A DNA stretch of 64,000 nucleotides from Streptomyces sp. NBC_01750 (GTDB taxonomy: Bacteria > Actinomycetota > Actinomycetes > Streptomycetales > Streptomycetaceae): NCBI RefSeq assembly GCF_035918095.1, contig NZ_CP109137.1, forward strand, positions 5,582,001-5,646,000, read 5' to 3'. Position numbers and translations under genes: made by a program. Shown here piece after piece: positions 47,768 through 57,096 of this stretch. Position 1 is the stretch's first letter. Each line of letters begins with the position of its first letter. Under the pieces are notes generated by a model. The model searched no databases and was not told the origin of the DNA. It saw only the letters and a program-made list of their open reading frames with translations.

Positions 47768-48316
47768 TCATCCTGCATCTCCGGCATTCCACCGGAGATG
47801 CGTTTCCTTAGCTACGTGTAGGAGAACCGATTGCAGGGCTGCCCGGTGTGCGCCACGCTCCTTCATCGCGTGACAGTTGGGGCATAGAGCGACCATCTGT
47901 ACAGGATGATCGCGGCCGCCACCAGCAATGCGCTCCACATGGTCCACCTCCAAGATCGCCTGACCATGATCAGTAAGGTCAGAGGGTTGGCCGCCGCACG
48001 AGGGATTCTCGCACTGTCCCTGGCAACGCAGAAGTACAGCCTCCCTAGCTTCCTTGAGGCGTACCGGTTCACGTCTCACATGCTCACGCCGACCCCCGCT
48101 GGCGGCGGATTCGCGCTCCTCGACCTTTTCTACGAGCGCGCGATACCTGGCAGACACCCTGGGCGGCTGCAAGTCACGGATTGCCAAGGAACTACTAGGG
48201 CGGACTCGTCTGGATTTCAAGTGGCGCGCCGAGTAGGGCTGTCCGTTGCTCAATGGATTCCTTGAGACCGTCTTATGGTCCGACACGGGCCCCCTCCAGT
48301 CGCCTTCAGCAGGCAT
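47768..48316 (-). CDS. HNH endonuclease
   Basis: Zinc-binding HNH nuclease, active site in ILEVDHVERIAGGGRDHPVQ followed by MVALCPNCHAMKERG, with a paired cysteine motif CENPSCGG upstream; the metal is held by these cysteines and the histidines. The first 53 residues are not typical, and a GTG at 48157 (SARYRALVEKVEERESAASG) is a better start. Related proteins are usually longer at the N terminus, so this may be a C-terminal domain. Could be a lone restriction or mobile nuclease. Confidence 0.75.
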   Translation of the reverse strand: MPAEGDWRGPVSDHKTVSRNPLSNGQPYSARHLKSRRVRPSSSLAIRDLQPPRVSARYRALVEKVEERESAASGGRREHVRREPVRLKEAREAVLLRCQGQCENPSCGGQPSDLTDHGQAILEVDHVERIAGGGRDHPVQMVALCPNCHAMKERGAHRAALQSVLLHVAKETHLRWNAGDAG

Positions 48317-48423: not shown

Positions 48424-49592
48424 GTGGACCTCGAAGAGTTGCTGAGCGTCATGGACCGTGCTGCCGCCAACTTGGCCAAGCTAGAAGCCGTCTGGGCACG
48501 CGCGTCGGTCTTTGTCCCCGATAGCCCGCGCGGGGATCTAACCCTGAATACGATGATCATCGCCGAGCCTGGGCCGACTTTCTCCCGGGCCTTCCGCCGA
48601 TTGATGGTTGGATAATTACCGGCCAGCTACCCGACATTGATGAAATGGGTCAGAGCTTTATCGACTATGCCGAAATTGGCGAGCTGCCGGTGGCTGTTTG
48701 GGAAGCCGGCGAGAAGCCAGCCAAAGACCTTGCCGACTATCGGTATCGTCTACATCGGGCCCGGCGAAGGGCAGTTGCAGGACGACTGCAACAACTTCAG
48801 GCCCAGGTGGAAATAGCTCTGCCGGGAATTCTTCAAGATGTTCCACGCGCATCTCGCGAACGGCTCGTCAACCCTTCGGTCAACATCATCACCTCTGCGG
48901 TCAGCGCGATTGAGAGGCTCCTCGGGGATACTGCGGAGAGGAAGGGGCGCTGGGGCGACCTTCACCGACACATTTCCTTCGGAGAGGGCCACGACTGGCA
49001 CGATATCGCGGAGATCGATTGGCCCAGTATCCAGCCCGATATCGACAGCGGTGCCTTGTCCGATTCCGATCCGCTCCCTGTGCCGGACCTCGACCTTGGA
49101 AGCGCAGCAGCCGGAAGCCTGACGGGCGTAGCTACGATTGCGCTACCCTGGGACCGCTTAGATGATGACAAGTTCGAGAGACTTCTATACGACCTCCTCC
49201 GCGACTTCGCCGAAGATGAGAATGTCCAGTGGTTGATGCACACGCGCGCACCTGATCGTGGACGTGATCTCTCTCTAGACCGTGTCATCAGAGACGGCAC
49301 TGGTGGTGTGCGAAGCGAGCGGGTCATCGTCCAAGCCAAGCATTGGTTGAAGCGATCGGTGGATGTGGCCGCTCTAGCGGCGACCGTCGCAGCCGTGAAG
49401 TTGTGGGAGCCGCCAGTCGTGCGCGGACTCGTCATGGCGACCTCCGGCCGCTTCACCGCCGACGCAGTCTCCTGGGCGGAACAACAAAACGAGAGCGGCT
49501 CCGCTCCATACATAGAGTTGTGGCCCGACAGCCGTTTGGAGACCTTGCTCGCGCAGAAGCCCCACCTTGCGGCAGCCCATGGTCTCCGATGA
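48424..49592 (+). pseudogene. Mrr-type restriction endonuclease, frameshifted
   Basis: GTG 48424 starts DLEELLSVMDRAAANLAKLE; at a run of four G (48532-48535) the frame must gain one base, because the correct continuation (SNPEYDDHRRAWADFLPGLP, then IDGWIITGQLPDID) is in another frame. From there the protein is open to 49592 and contains the helix FERLLYDLLRDFAEDENVQW and the PD-(D/E)xK site GRDLSLD .. ERVIVQAKHW. Full length would be about 389 residues. Likely a non-functional or error-containing restriction nuclease; a programmed shift is not suggested by the site. Confidence 0.75.
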
Positions 49593-53165: not shown

Positions 53166-54844
53166 CCTTAGCCTCGATCCACCGATGTGGGCTGAGGGTG
53201 ATCTTCTGGCTGAGGTCGGGGGACGGCCGTTGGATTGGGCACCTTGTAGCTGCTGGTCTGCCCAGCGTTTCCACGTGTTCGGTTCCGGTTGGGCCCTTGC
53301 GGGCGGGGTGGGCAGGGACGTTCGTGTCAGCCGGCTGGGCCGTGGACGGTGTCGAAGAGGTGTGTCCAGGCGTGCTGCCAGGGCCAGTTGTTCGGTAGGT
53401 GCAGGGTGACGCGCCGTGCGGAGCGGGCGGTCCGGGCGGGAACGTGGATCAGGTGGGCGCGGAGGGTGGCGGTGGTGGCCTTGGCGTGGAAGGCGGAGGT
53501 CAGAGCACCGGTGGCCCGCAGCAGGTTGTAGGTCATCGCCCACAGGGTCAGCCAGGCGGAGTTGGCGTGGAAGTGTCCGGACGGCAGGTGGGCCAGAGCT
53601 GCGGCTTTGCTGTCGGCGATGACCTGCTCGACGACGGCGTGGTGACGGTGTTCCCGTTCTGACTGGAGGGTCGGGGCGGGGTTGTCGGTGAAGAACGGGT
53701 GGTAGCGCCAGAGGGGGAACAGCTCGCCCTGTTCACCCACGACGGCGGGTTCGGCCAGGTCCCGGACCCGGCGCACGATCAGCCGGGCCGTGACCCGCTC
53801 GCTCTTCTTGCGGCCGGTGAAGGCGGTGTAGGCGGGTATCTCGGCGACTTCGGCGCCGGAGATGAGCTCGCCGGTGTCGGGGTCGGGCACCGCGGTGGGA
53901 TAGGTGATCTGCTGCCATGCCTCGTCCGGAATGCCGAGGACGGCCCGCTTGATGGAGGGGTTCATGCCGCAGGTGATGGAGAAGCGGGCCCCGGTCCGGC
54001 GGCAGGCGGCGATTACACCGGCGTTGTAGAACTGTGAATCTGCCCGCAGGATCCGCAGGCCGGTGCAGCCGACCTCGACGGCGGTGGCCAGCGCCTCACT
54101 GACCAGTTTCGGGGCGCCGCGTGAGTCGGCTGCCTTCCCGCGGCGCATCCGCACGGTGGCGATCACCGGCCGCGAGGCGGGGGTGCAGATCGTGGCCAGC
54201 AGCGGGTGCAGGGTGCGGACGCCCTTGAACCGGCCGTACTCGGCGCCCTGCTTGGTCCGGCCGTAGACCCGTTTGTGGGTGGAGTCGACATCGATGAACG
54301 CCTTCTCGCCTGCGCCGGGCAGCAGCGGCGTGTGCGAGGCCAAAGCGGCCAGGAACCTGCGGTGCACCGCGTGGAGCTGGAGTGCGTGACCGTGGGTGAA
54401 CGCGCGCAGGAAGCTGCCCAGCGTGGAGGGCGCACGGACGCCTGCGAACAACACGGGCATCGCGCCGTGGCGCAGGACGTGAAGGTCGTCGATGCTGTCC
54501 GCACCGGCGGCCATCCCGGCCACGATGCTGGTGACCTTGGCATCCGGCCCGGCACCCGCGCCGTTCTTCGCTCCGGTCAGCTTCACCTTCTCCGCCACCA
54601 GACGGGCCAGCCCGCACCGCTCGGCCAGCTGCATCACCGGGACCAGCCCGGCATGCGCGATCAGATTCGGGTCGTCGAACGCAGCGGAGACCGCCGCCGG
54701 AGTATGGGAAACTTTCATCTACGAGGTGCCTTGCTGATTGTGCGTGCTGGAAGCGTCAGAACTCCCATCATCGCAGGTCAGCAGGCACCTCTTCTTGATT
54801 CCTTATCCACAGGACGCGGGTCACTCGGTGGATCGAGGCTTAGG
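53166..54844 (-). mobile_element. Complete IS1380-family insertion sequence
   Basis: 1679 bp with 20-bp terminal inverted repeats: CCTTAGCCTCGATCCACCGA on the left and CCTAAGCCTCGATCCACCGA (complement strand) on the right, one mismatch. One transposase gene fills it. No obvious target-site duplication in the flanks (GACC left, CGCT right), so flanking DNA may have recombined. A hairpin (GAGGTGCC / GGCACCTC, about 54723-54791) lies at the 5' side of the transposase gene. Confidence 0.85.
53327..54718 (-). CDS. IS1380 family transposase
   Basis: A 463-residue DDE transposase. It has FIDVDSTHKRVYGRTKQG (first Asp), LRILRADSQFYNAGVI (second Asp) and VVEQVIADSKAAALAHLP (third acidic site), in the order expected for the IS4/IS1380 superfamily. 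Length and the C-terminal WLTLWAMTYNLLRATG are typical. It fills the IS with short non-coding ends and the hairpin upstream. Intact, so the element may still be mobile. Confidence 0.9.
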   Translation of the reverse strand: MKVSHTPAAVSAAFDDPNLIAHAGLVPVMQLAERCGLARLVAEKVKLTGAKNGAGAGPDAKVTSIVAGMAAGADSIDDLHVLRHGAMPVLFAGVRAPSTLGSFLRAFTHGHALQLHAVHRRFLAALASHTPLLPGAGEKAFIDVDSTHKRVYGRTKQGAEYGRFKGVRTLHPLLATICTPASRPVIATVRMRRGKAADSRGAPKLVSEALATAVEVGCTGLRILRADSQFYNAGVIAACRRTGARFSITCGMNPSIKRAVLGIPDEAWQQITYPTAVPDPDTGELISGAEVAEIPAYTAFTGRKKSERVTARLIVRRVRDLAEPAVVGEQGELFPLWRYHPFFTDNPAPTLQSEREHRHHAVVEQVIADSKAAALAHLPSGHFHANSAWLTLWAMTYNLLRATGALTSAFHAKATTATLRAHLIHVPARTARSARRVTLHLPNNWPWQHAWTHLFDTVHGPAG

Positions 54845-55035
54845 CGCTGCCGCCCGACACGGCCATAGCTACCCTCCAGTAAGGGTGACCTGCGGGGATG
54901 GCCCGAGCTGGTTGCCTTTGACGAGTGGATATGCGAGACGGCAGTTGCTGGATAGAGTCGTCTCGTTACAACTGGTTGTGGGGACAACCAAAAGCGCCTT
55001 TCGGCTGCCATCGTCCTGGGGAGGGCCTGCAGCAC
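54845..55035. other. 191-bp region between IS1380 and the endonuclease-TerD gene
   Basis: Holds the presumed promoter of the fusion gene. Any IS-borne outward promoter would also act here. A GGGGAGGG ribosome-like stretch lies about 16 bases before the start. Confidence 0.4.
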
Positions 55036-57096
55036 ATGAGTCGTCGCTCTACTGGCTTTGTCGGCGTGTGGGCTGAGATGCAACGGCAGCAGCAACGCCA
55101 ACTGGAAGCCGAAGCCAGACAGCGGAGACAAGAAGCTCAGCAAGCGCGGGCCTACCAGCGACGAGCTGCCCAGAGCCACCGCGAATACAAGCAGGCAGAG
55201 GCGCTGCGTCGCACGGAGGAACTGGACGCACAGGTTGCGTCACTGCAAGCTCTTCTCGCATCGGGTTGTCGAGCCCCGGCTTTCAGGGCTGCCTCACTCA
55301 TGCGACATGAGGAGATCCAGCCCTTCGCCCCCGGACCGTTGGCGCAGCCCGTGCCCATGCCGGATTTCAATCAGTACCAAACGCAGAGCGGTTGGACCGC
55401 GAGTCGCCGGGCTCAGGCGCAGGCCGAAGCGCAGACGCGCTTCGAGCGGGACTGGCAGGCTGCCCAGGCCGTGGAGGCTCAGCGACAGCAGCAGCTGGCG
55501 TCGTACCAGCGGGAGTACCAGCACTGGGCCGACGCTCAGTTGGCTGAGGTGCGCGCGCACAATGCCGGCGTCGTCGCGGTAATCGAGGGCGTAAAGCGCC
55601 GGGGTCCCGATTCCGTGGTCGAGTACTTCTCCGCCGCTCTCTATGCCTCAACGGCGTGGCCCGAAGGTTTCCCGCGTCAGGTTGCAGCTGCCTACGACCC
55701 GGCAGCCCGGCAGTTGGTGCTGGATTGGGAGTTGCCCGCTTACAGCATCGTCCCCGAGGTCAAGTCCGTTCGGTACATGTCCGGGGTCGATCAGGAAAAG
55801 GAGACCCCCCGTCCGGTAGGCCAGCGTCGAGCTCTGTACAGGGAGGTACTCGCGCAGTGCATGCTGCTCGTATTGCACGAACTCTTCGCCGCAGATGAGC
55901 TGGGTGCCCTTGAGTCGGTGGCCTTGAACGGGTTCGTCGATGGACACGACCCTACGACGGGCCGACCGGGCCATATCTTCCTCGCAACTGTCATGGCCTC
56001 GCGCTCTTCGTTCCATGACCTGCACCTAGCGCAGGTGGAGGCAGGCAGTTGCCTGGCTGACGCTCTGCGAGGGCAGCTCTCAGCCAGGCCGGACCAACTC
56101 ATACCAGTACGGCCGAGTCGGCGGCCGCAAGATGTCGGGAACCGCGTCGTCGCCCACGGCAGCGACGAGGAACCGGATCTGTACGACATGGATCCGGTCG
56201 CATTCGAGAATCTTGTCGCCGATCTCTTCCGGGCCATGGGGATGCAAGCGGTGACGACCCAACGCTCAAACGATGGCGGTGTGGACGTCGACGCCCTGGA
56301 TCCGGCACCGATCCGAGGCGGCAAGATCGTCGTGCAGGTGAAGCGTTACCGCAACACGGTGCCTCCCACTGCCGTGCGTGACTTGTTCGGGACTGTGCAG
56401 GACGCCGGCGCCAACAAGGGTGTCCTCGTGACGACGTCAGGGTTCGGTCCTGGCTCACACACCTTCGCCAATGGCAAGCCGCTGGAACTTGTCTCGGGCA
56501 CAGAGCTCGTCGACCTGCTGCATCGTCATGGGCTGCGTGGGCGACTGGGCGAGAGCCGTCGTCAAGCCGCTGCACAGCTGACACCGTCGGGCCCGGACAC
56601 TCGTTTGCCTGACGACTACAACGTCCTGGGCATGTCGTGGTCGGGAAGGGTCGCCTTGGACGTGTGTGCCCTCGTCTGCAGTGGCAACCGCGTCCTCAGC
56701 GACGATCACTTCGTCTTCTACAACAACCCGCAGACTCCGGACGGCTCAGTGCGTGCTCTTCCCGCAGCGGCGCCCGACAAGGCAGCAATGTGCGTCTCCT
56801 TCGACGGGTTGCCAGAGGAGGCCGATCGGTTCGTACTCGTGGCCGCCATCGACCCAGAGGTCAACCCGGACGCCGATCTCTCCGGTTTCACTGACGCCTG
56901 CATCCGGCTGCTCGATCCGGGGATGGCGGAGCTGGGACGGCTTGAGGTCTCCGACGGCCGGCCGCGCGAGACTGCCTTGGTACTCGGCTCCTTCCGTCGA
57001 AGGCCCAACGGGGACTGGGACTTCGTCCTCGGTGGCAAGGGCTACACGGGCGGCCTGGAGGAACTCGTTCAGGGTTACGGCATCGAGGTGGAGTAG
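55036..57096 (+). CDS. Coiled-coil / Mrr-type endonuclease / TerD fusion protein
   Basis: A 686-residue protein with three parts. Residues 1-190: Gln/Ala/Arg/Glu-rich coiled coil. About 385-510: a PD-(D/E)xK nuclease of the Mrr type, FENLVADLFRAMG .. GGVDVDALD (Asp417) .. IVVQVKRYRN (Gln434, Lys436), followed by GVLVTTSGFG. About 526-686: a TerD domain with YNVLGMSW, DDHFVFYNNPQTPDGS, and FRRRPNGDWDFVLGG. A fold of unknown kind lies between (190-370). TerD domains bind calcium and are tied to tellurite, phage and stress resistance; fusions with nucleases have been noted by comparative studies. No modification methylase is near. Adjacent IS1380 suggests mobility. ATG at 55036. Confidence 0.88.
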   Translation: MSRRSTGFVGVWAEMQRQQQRQLEAEARQRRQEAQQARAYQRRAAQSHREYKQAEALRRTEELDAQVASLQALLASGCRAPAFRAASLMRHEEIQPFAPGPLAQPVPMPDFNQYQTQSGWTASRRAQAQAEAQTRFERDWQAAQAVEAQRQQQLASYQREYQHWADAQLAEVRAHNAGVVAVIEGVKRRGPDSVVEYFSAALYASTAWPEGFPRQVAAAYDPAARQLVLDWELPAYSIVPEVKSVRYMSGVDQEKETPRPVGQRRALYREVLAQCMLLVLHELFAADELGALESVALNGFVDGHDPTTGRPGHIFLATVMASRSSFHDLHLAQVEAGSCLADALRGQLSARPDQLIPVRPSRRPQDVGNRVVAHGSDEEPDLYDMDPVAFENLVADLFRAMGMQAVTTQRSNDGGVDVDALDPAPIRGGKIVVQVKRYRNTVPPTAVRDLFGTVQDAGANKGVLVTTSGFGPGSHTFANGKPLELVSGTELVDLLHRHGLRGRLGESRRQAAAQLTPSGPDTRLPDDYNVLGMSWSGRVALDVCALVCSGNRVLSDDHFVFYNNPQTPDGSVRALPAAAPDKAAMCVSFDGLPEEADRFVLVAAIDPEVNPDADLSGFTDACIRLLDPGMAELGRLEVSDGRPRETALVLGSFRRRPNGDWDFVLGGKGYTGGLEELVQGYGIEVE

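Follow-up and report, generated by a model that had tools for sequence, protein, structure and literature searches.

What does a bacterium gain from a protein that joins an Mrr-class nuclease to a TerD domain? The question is raised by a gene in a 64,000-nucleotide stretch of Streptomyces sp. NBC_01750 (contig NZ_CP109137.1, positions 5,582,001 to 5,646,000), here called the window. The gene lies on the plus strand and runs from an ATG at 55036 to a stop codon ending at 57096; open reading frame (ORF) and translation checks give a product of 686 amino acids (aa). The reading that we favor, with a probability of roughly 55%, is that it encodes a Streptomycetaceae restriction endonuclease of the Mrr class that is modification dependent (type IV-like), consists of a single protein, and ends in a TerD tail. 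The ORF list places the start of the frame at an in-frame GTG at 54925, upstream of this ATG; when 127 distinct full-length relatives (window protein included) are aligned, M1, encoded by the ATG at 55036, falls in a near-invariant column.

Domain organization and the nuclease domain

A Pfam scan revealed Mrr_cat at residues 383 to 495 (E value, 2.7e-31; 108.5 bits against a curated cutoff of 21) and TerD at residues 537 to 681 (E value, 1.2e-22). A first-pass annotation, made from the sequence without database searches, had described one protein joining a nuclease to TerD, and this is what was found. The nuclease domain (56182 to 56520) belongs to the PD-(D/E)xK Mrr_cat family both by its profile score, which is above the cutoff, and by its conserved D..QxK residues. 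A match to NA-iREase1, whose name marks a family of inactive nucleases, overlaps Mrr_cat; this label does not fit, as the catalytic residues are all intact.

Asp417, Gln434, and Lys436, already picked out as the active site in the first-pass annotation, are the same in all 127 distinct relatives, and so is Glu391. The Mrr part had the lowest mean column entropy in this alignment (0.33 bits, with 60% of columns below 0.15), followed by the TerD domain (0.68), the middle domain (0.77), the helical part (0.93 to 1.01), and the linker at residues 498 to 524 (1.65). In the fold comparison, the closest solved structure was AF1548, and the next were AspBHI and MspJI, which are modification-dependent enzymes. 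The nuclease is probably catalytically active.

The ratio of nonsynonymous to synonymous substitution (dN/dS) against eight relatives was 0.09 to 0.15 for the whole gene, 0.04 to 0.11 for the Mrr part, and 0.08 to 0.25 for TerD. Synonymous change far exceeds amino acid change, so purifying selection acts on every domain and maintains the protein as a whole, the TerD part with it. It is very unlikely that the gene has an intact catalytic fold and is nonetheless inactive or decaying in this strain: the frame is intact, every invariant residue is present, and dN/dS against the three closest relatives compared was 0.09 to 0.12. Decay would fit the rather low GC content at third codon positions (GC3) of the window copy, 0.738 against 0.739 to 0.958 in 31 relatives (of 100, after a strict motif filter, with stop-to-stop frames), a low edge shared equally by a few relatives, and it would fit the setting of the gene, an expanded region with a transposase gene immediately 5' of it (described below).

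Assignment to a restriction class

The PADLOC type IV profile PDLC03663 (mREase_IV) covers residues 17 to 498 (E value, 1.3e-53) and so extends beyond the nuclease domain. The DNA cut by type IV enzymes is modified, and these enzymes come without a methylase. The protein resembles them in that the profile reaches past the nuclease and that no methylase or partner is obligatory. Methylase families were matched by none of the seven window neighbors scanned, which is explained because type IV restriction needs none. From the missing methylase it had been reasoned that control must lie with the TerD or the middle domain; this does not follow, since type IV enzymes lack one and PADLOC already models residues 17 to 498.

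A protein search gave 2061 matches among 8000 scored. The 120 matches listed, window protein included, are TerD fusions with 97 to 100% query coverage and 84 to 100% identity; nearly all of those with a source name are called "restriction endonuclease," five are called "restriction system protein," and one is called "hypothetical protein" in one of its source records. With the core already in a PADLOC type IV profile and the listed relatives mostly named as restriction endonucleases, the earlier suggestion of an uncharacterized system does not hold. The idea of a stand-alone defense nuclease survives as the best reading, and the claim of novelty and the argument from the methylase fail in part. 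The core is a known restriction class; the new element is the TerD tail. A defense role is likely, on the strength of class and distribution rather than of neighbors.

Distribution of fused and TerD-less relatives

The complete protein was found in one open frame in 108 of 295 Streptomyces genomes (99 of these genomes, among them that of the window, gave one alignment, and the other 9 matched in two pieces). In ten more genomes of the genus the copy is partial or odd: one has a stop codon (G072), two have frame changes (G171 and G224), two are truncated (G196 and G112), one has an internal gap (G164), three are TerD-only pieces (G013, G262, and G125), and one is unclear (G168). An order-level search found fusions in three more genera of the same family (G503, G492, and G468), and one fused copy sits on a Kitasatospora plasmid. 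The tail was seen in this family alone. A class-wide search of 345 genomes found the TerD-less core in 25 that lie outside the Streptomycetaceae, with every match ending by residue 526; portions of the core within residues 158 to 492 also occur, at 34 to 42% identity, on plasmids from Methylobacterium, Xanthomonas, Agrobacterium, and others. Because the core is this widespread without TerD, the domain is a family-specific addition that cannot be the general control of the nuclease.

A tree was built from 61 fused cores and 61 that were TerD-less or distant; the fused cores formed one cluster with a support of 0.94. Of the 46 fused and 39 TerD-less sequences that passed an identity filter, 38 and 28, respectively, went into the fold alignment (A1). 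A single fusion event is likely but falls short of proof, because a second tree, which included a 44%-identical member (L156), placed one TerD-less row among the fused cores.

Two side observations concern the TerD-less relatives. In S. albus subsp. chlorinus (L107, 10001 to 13944), a TerD-tailed and a TerD-less member adjoin on opposite strands. On a Xanthomonas plasmid (L234, 3930 to 9029) and an Agrobacterium plasmid (L236, 2700 to 7969), the TerD-less gene lies 65 to 75 bases 3' of a helicase gene; the two helicases are superfamily 1 (SF1) type, 1137 to 1188 aa long with AAA_11/AAA_12, and 36% identical to each other. Helicase and nuclease possibly form a pair on these plasmids. No such helicase was seen near the 101 fused loci or near 36 actinobacterial loci that are TerD-less, distant, or partial, many of them with flanks limited to about 1.5 kb.

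Genomic neighborhood

The first-pass annotation had called for a search of the neighbors. We compared 101 loci (the window, 80 relatives, and 20 others, some of which may share species with the 80), and they fell into 27 context groups (34, 13, 9, 7, 6, 5, 4, 2, 2, and 2 members and 17 single loci) with no conserved neighbor. Grouping was by single linkage, and the largest group is therefore loose. The commonest other neighbor cluster was present at 29 of the 101 loci; thus, there is no obligatory partner. The ten multimember groups (83 rows of a tree built from 100 of the 101 loci) required 11 changes on the gene tree, against a minimum of 9 and a shuffled mean of 46.8. Because the context groups follow the gene tree, the gene is inherited in place within clades, with an occasional move.

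These data bear on whether the protein is a housekeeping nuclease for DNA processing or repair in the Ter stress response, acting, for example, where DNA is damaged in the course of development or under oxidative stress. Such a role is improbable: the whole protein is missing from most genomes of the genus, the contexts at the 101 loci are many, and copies are found on plasmids. One Streptomyces plasmid carries the gene near an AIPR-family gene, a PIN-domain gene, and two transposase genes. Carriage as a whole is patchy.

Defense genes in the vicinity were sought by taking six genes at each of 20 loci (120 genes) and comparing them with a control of 115 genes drawn from 20 random sites in those genomes (115 of 116, the one omitted being 1803 aa). 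PADLOC was run at an E value of 1e-8, and the families considered are 25 of 43 near the gene and 25 of 26 in the control. Among these, the defense matches near the gene were a BrxD and BrxHI pair (L142), AbiEi and AbiEii, WYL, and mad3; those in the control were mad3 (twice), mad8 (twice), Cas12-like, SspH, Csx1, DEDDh, PDC-S48, AriA, mad2, PDC-M51A, and C3a194. No clear enrichment of defense genes near the gene was evident for these families at 20 loci each. The first-pass annotation had regarded a random spread without defense neighbors as telling against its proposal; on that point, patchy carriage together with this result is ambiguous.

The mobile-element-rich block of the first-pass annotation is not borne out in that form: at the window locus a transposase gene (53327 to 54718) lies just upstream, but in 83 relatives from the ten multimember groups the context closely tracks the gene tree. 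Homologs of the flanks of the largest context group lie at 19.5 to 28.7, 33.7 to 34.0, 40.7 to 42.8, and 59.5 to 63.7 kb of the window. Two of these marker families lie 35 kb apart here (27.7 to 63.7 kb); in the 12 relatives showing both, the spacing never exceeds 15.8 kb, and the relatives' flanks of about 10 kb would make any wider spacing invisible. Because of this difference in spacing, the window seems to carry an expanded version of the largest group's site. The intervening space contains transposase, HNH, Mrr, and small genes, and no tRNA was found in the window. Two of these genes, 5 to 9 kb upstream, are restriction-like. One, on the minus strand (47771 to 48316), encodes an HNH protein that matches only the C-terminal part (439 to 555 of 560) of PADLOC mREase_IV PDLC03662 and may be a remnant; the other, on the plus strand (48645 to 49589), encodes an Mrr_cat protein of 315 aa.

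N-terminal hairpin and middle domain

Residues 8 to 187 (55057 to 55596) are rich in Ala, Gln, Arg, and Glu and are modeled by AlphaFold as a hairpin of two long helices (residues 8 to 71 and 122 to 187, about 65 residues each) separated by a broken stretch. Heptad periodicity was not significant in six overlapping segments of this part (shuffle P values of 0.18 to 0.80), so that the "long coiled coil" proposed earlier is better described as a helical hairpin. The winged helix Mrr_N was not found in the Pfam scan at an E value of 0.05; the AlphaFold model has the hairpin at the N terminus.

For the region that follows, the first-pass annotation had proposed a middle fold of no recognized kind and had recommended structure prediction. 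The prediction gave an alpha-beta4-alpha-beta2-alpha fold at residues 191 to 345 (55606 to 56070). Residues 101 to 375 have no Pfam match, and the middle domain had no clear fold match in the PDB comparison, both in line with the earlier description. The 50 fold matches listed for it include no SRA structure, an absence that excludes nothing. The domain adjoins the nuclease in relatives that span Streptomyces to Proteobacteria; found beside the nuclease across wide taxa and having no clear solved relative, it is a good candidate for a new DNA-reading module.

The TerD tail

A variable linker at residues 498 to 524 (56527 to 56607), modeled as disordered at 506 to 522, leads to a divergent TerD beta-sandwich at residues 525 to 686 (56608 to 57093), which is identified by both profile and fold. 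The domain enters the TerD profile late, at profile position 37. It lacks the GDNxTGEGxGDDE-like acidic loop, and the first Asp of DLDAS is replaced (Ala-Leu-Asp, versus Asp-Leu-Asp in three paralogs). In canonical TerD, these residues are calcium ligands. With neither the acidic loop nor the DLDAS Asp pair, the fused domain is not a canonical calcium-binding TerD; the usual calcium site appears to be lost, and calcium binding is doubtful. The "calcium-binding TerD" of the first-pass annotation thus stands as a TerD domain only. Among six distinct TerD domains aligned from the same genome (L003 and L008 overlap and are the same gene), the three with Asp-Leu-Asp carry the acidic loop and the other three do not; because of the latter three, the fused domain can be likened to a divergent TerD class already present in this genome. 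Of 127 relatives, 126 keep Cys544 and 126 keep Cys548. TerD-only copies that are 82 to 88% identical to the fused tail and have no nuclease were also observed (L187, 1084 to 2022; G262; G125), as remnants or reuse of the tail.

TerD has been proposed, in passages of two papers, to sense nucleotide derivatives or other signals (PMC7159879 and PMC7824862). A signal-gated suicide nuclease can be envisaged, in which TerD, or TerD with the middle domain, senses a metabolite of stress or infection and frees a nonspecific Mrr domain, so that the infected hyphal compartment is killed or stalled. We consider this unlikely. TerD-less relatives are widespread and retain the arm, middle domain, and nuclease; the lack of any conserved neighbor leaves no signal-making partner; and Card1, Can2, and Cdn1 score lower than AspBHI and MspJI, near chance level. 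Also unlikely is the reading that TerD is a ligand- or redox-gated switch on a modification-dependent nuclease with an undescribed arm-and-reader fold, marked DNA being restricted only under a signal of stress or infection. Such a switch, if real, would tie DNA restriction directly and physically to the Ter stress response.

Proposed mode of action and significance

For the favored restriction endonuclease, we infer the following mode of action. The helical hairpin would pair subunits or clamp DNA, and the alpha/beta middle domain would read the DNA, probably at a modified base. Mrr_cat would cut with Asp417, Gln434, and Lys436 and a metal ion. The C-terminal TerD, on its floppy linker, would be a lineage-specific accessory that tethers, localizes, or tunes the enzyme. 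The target would most likely be foreign DNA bearing the wrong chemical marks, and phages or plasmids may be affected.

Restriction of methylated DNA is given in part of one paper (PMC3009677) as the reason that DNA is usually passed through nonmethylating E. coli before S. coelicolor. The nuclease is present whole in about one-third of the sampled Streptomyces genomes and is a single gene, so its function is testable by one transfer into S. lividans. The gene, common in a much used genus, has one middle domain without an assigned family and one unexplained tail; with that tail under selection, the link proposed between Ter proteins and DNA processing could be put to a direct test.

Comparison with known systems

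The nearest known proteins are the TerD-less "restriction endonucleases" of actinomycetes (about 530 aa; PDLC03663), which share the helical N terminus, middle domain, and Mrr_cat at about 29 to 38% identity; they lack TerD, and matches to them end by residue 526. Searches of the literature on TerD with Mrr, restriction, or the Ter response yielded no description of the fusion in the titles and passages covered, which a 2012 Ter paper by Aravind and colleagues may well mention. The Ter-linked nuclease systems reportedly treated there are multigene, whereas the protein described here is one polypeptide with no conserved neighbor. Compared with canonical TerD (S. coelicolor 3ibz and Klebsiella 2kxt), the fused domain differs in its late start, its lost loop and Asp, and Cys544 and Cys548. 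A portion of PMC3710099 places TerD together with DNA-processing and restriction genes and mentions a TerD-dependent antiphage system with an McrBC-like part.

Like E. coli K-12 Mrr and S. coelicolor ScoA3Mrr (Sco4213), the protein has an Mrr_cat nuclease and no methylase of its own; unlike the E. coli Mrr subfamily, it lacks Mrr_N. Sco4213 is termed mrr-like in a section of a comparative-genome paper (PMC1934918), and according to part of a review (PMC3874153), it restricts DNA with N6-methyladenine (m6A) but not 5-methylcytosine (m5C) in vivo. The same part of the review warns that an Mrr-cat domain alone does not imply modification dependence, and it describes the recognition part of MspJI and AspBHI as SRA-like, whereas the protein described here has in its place a helical arm and an alpha/beta domain with no clear match.
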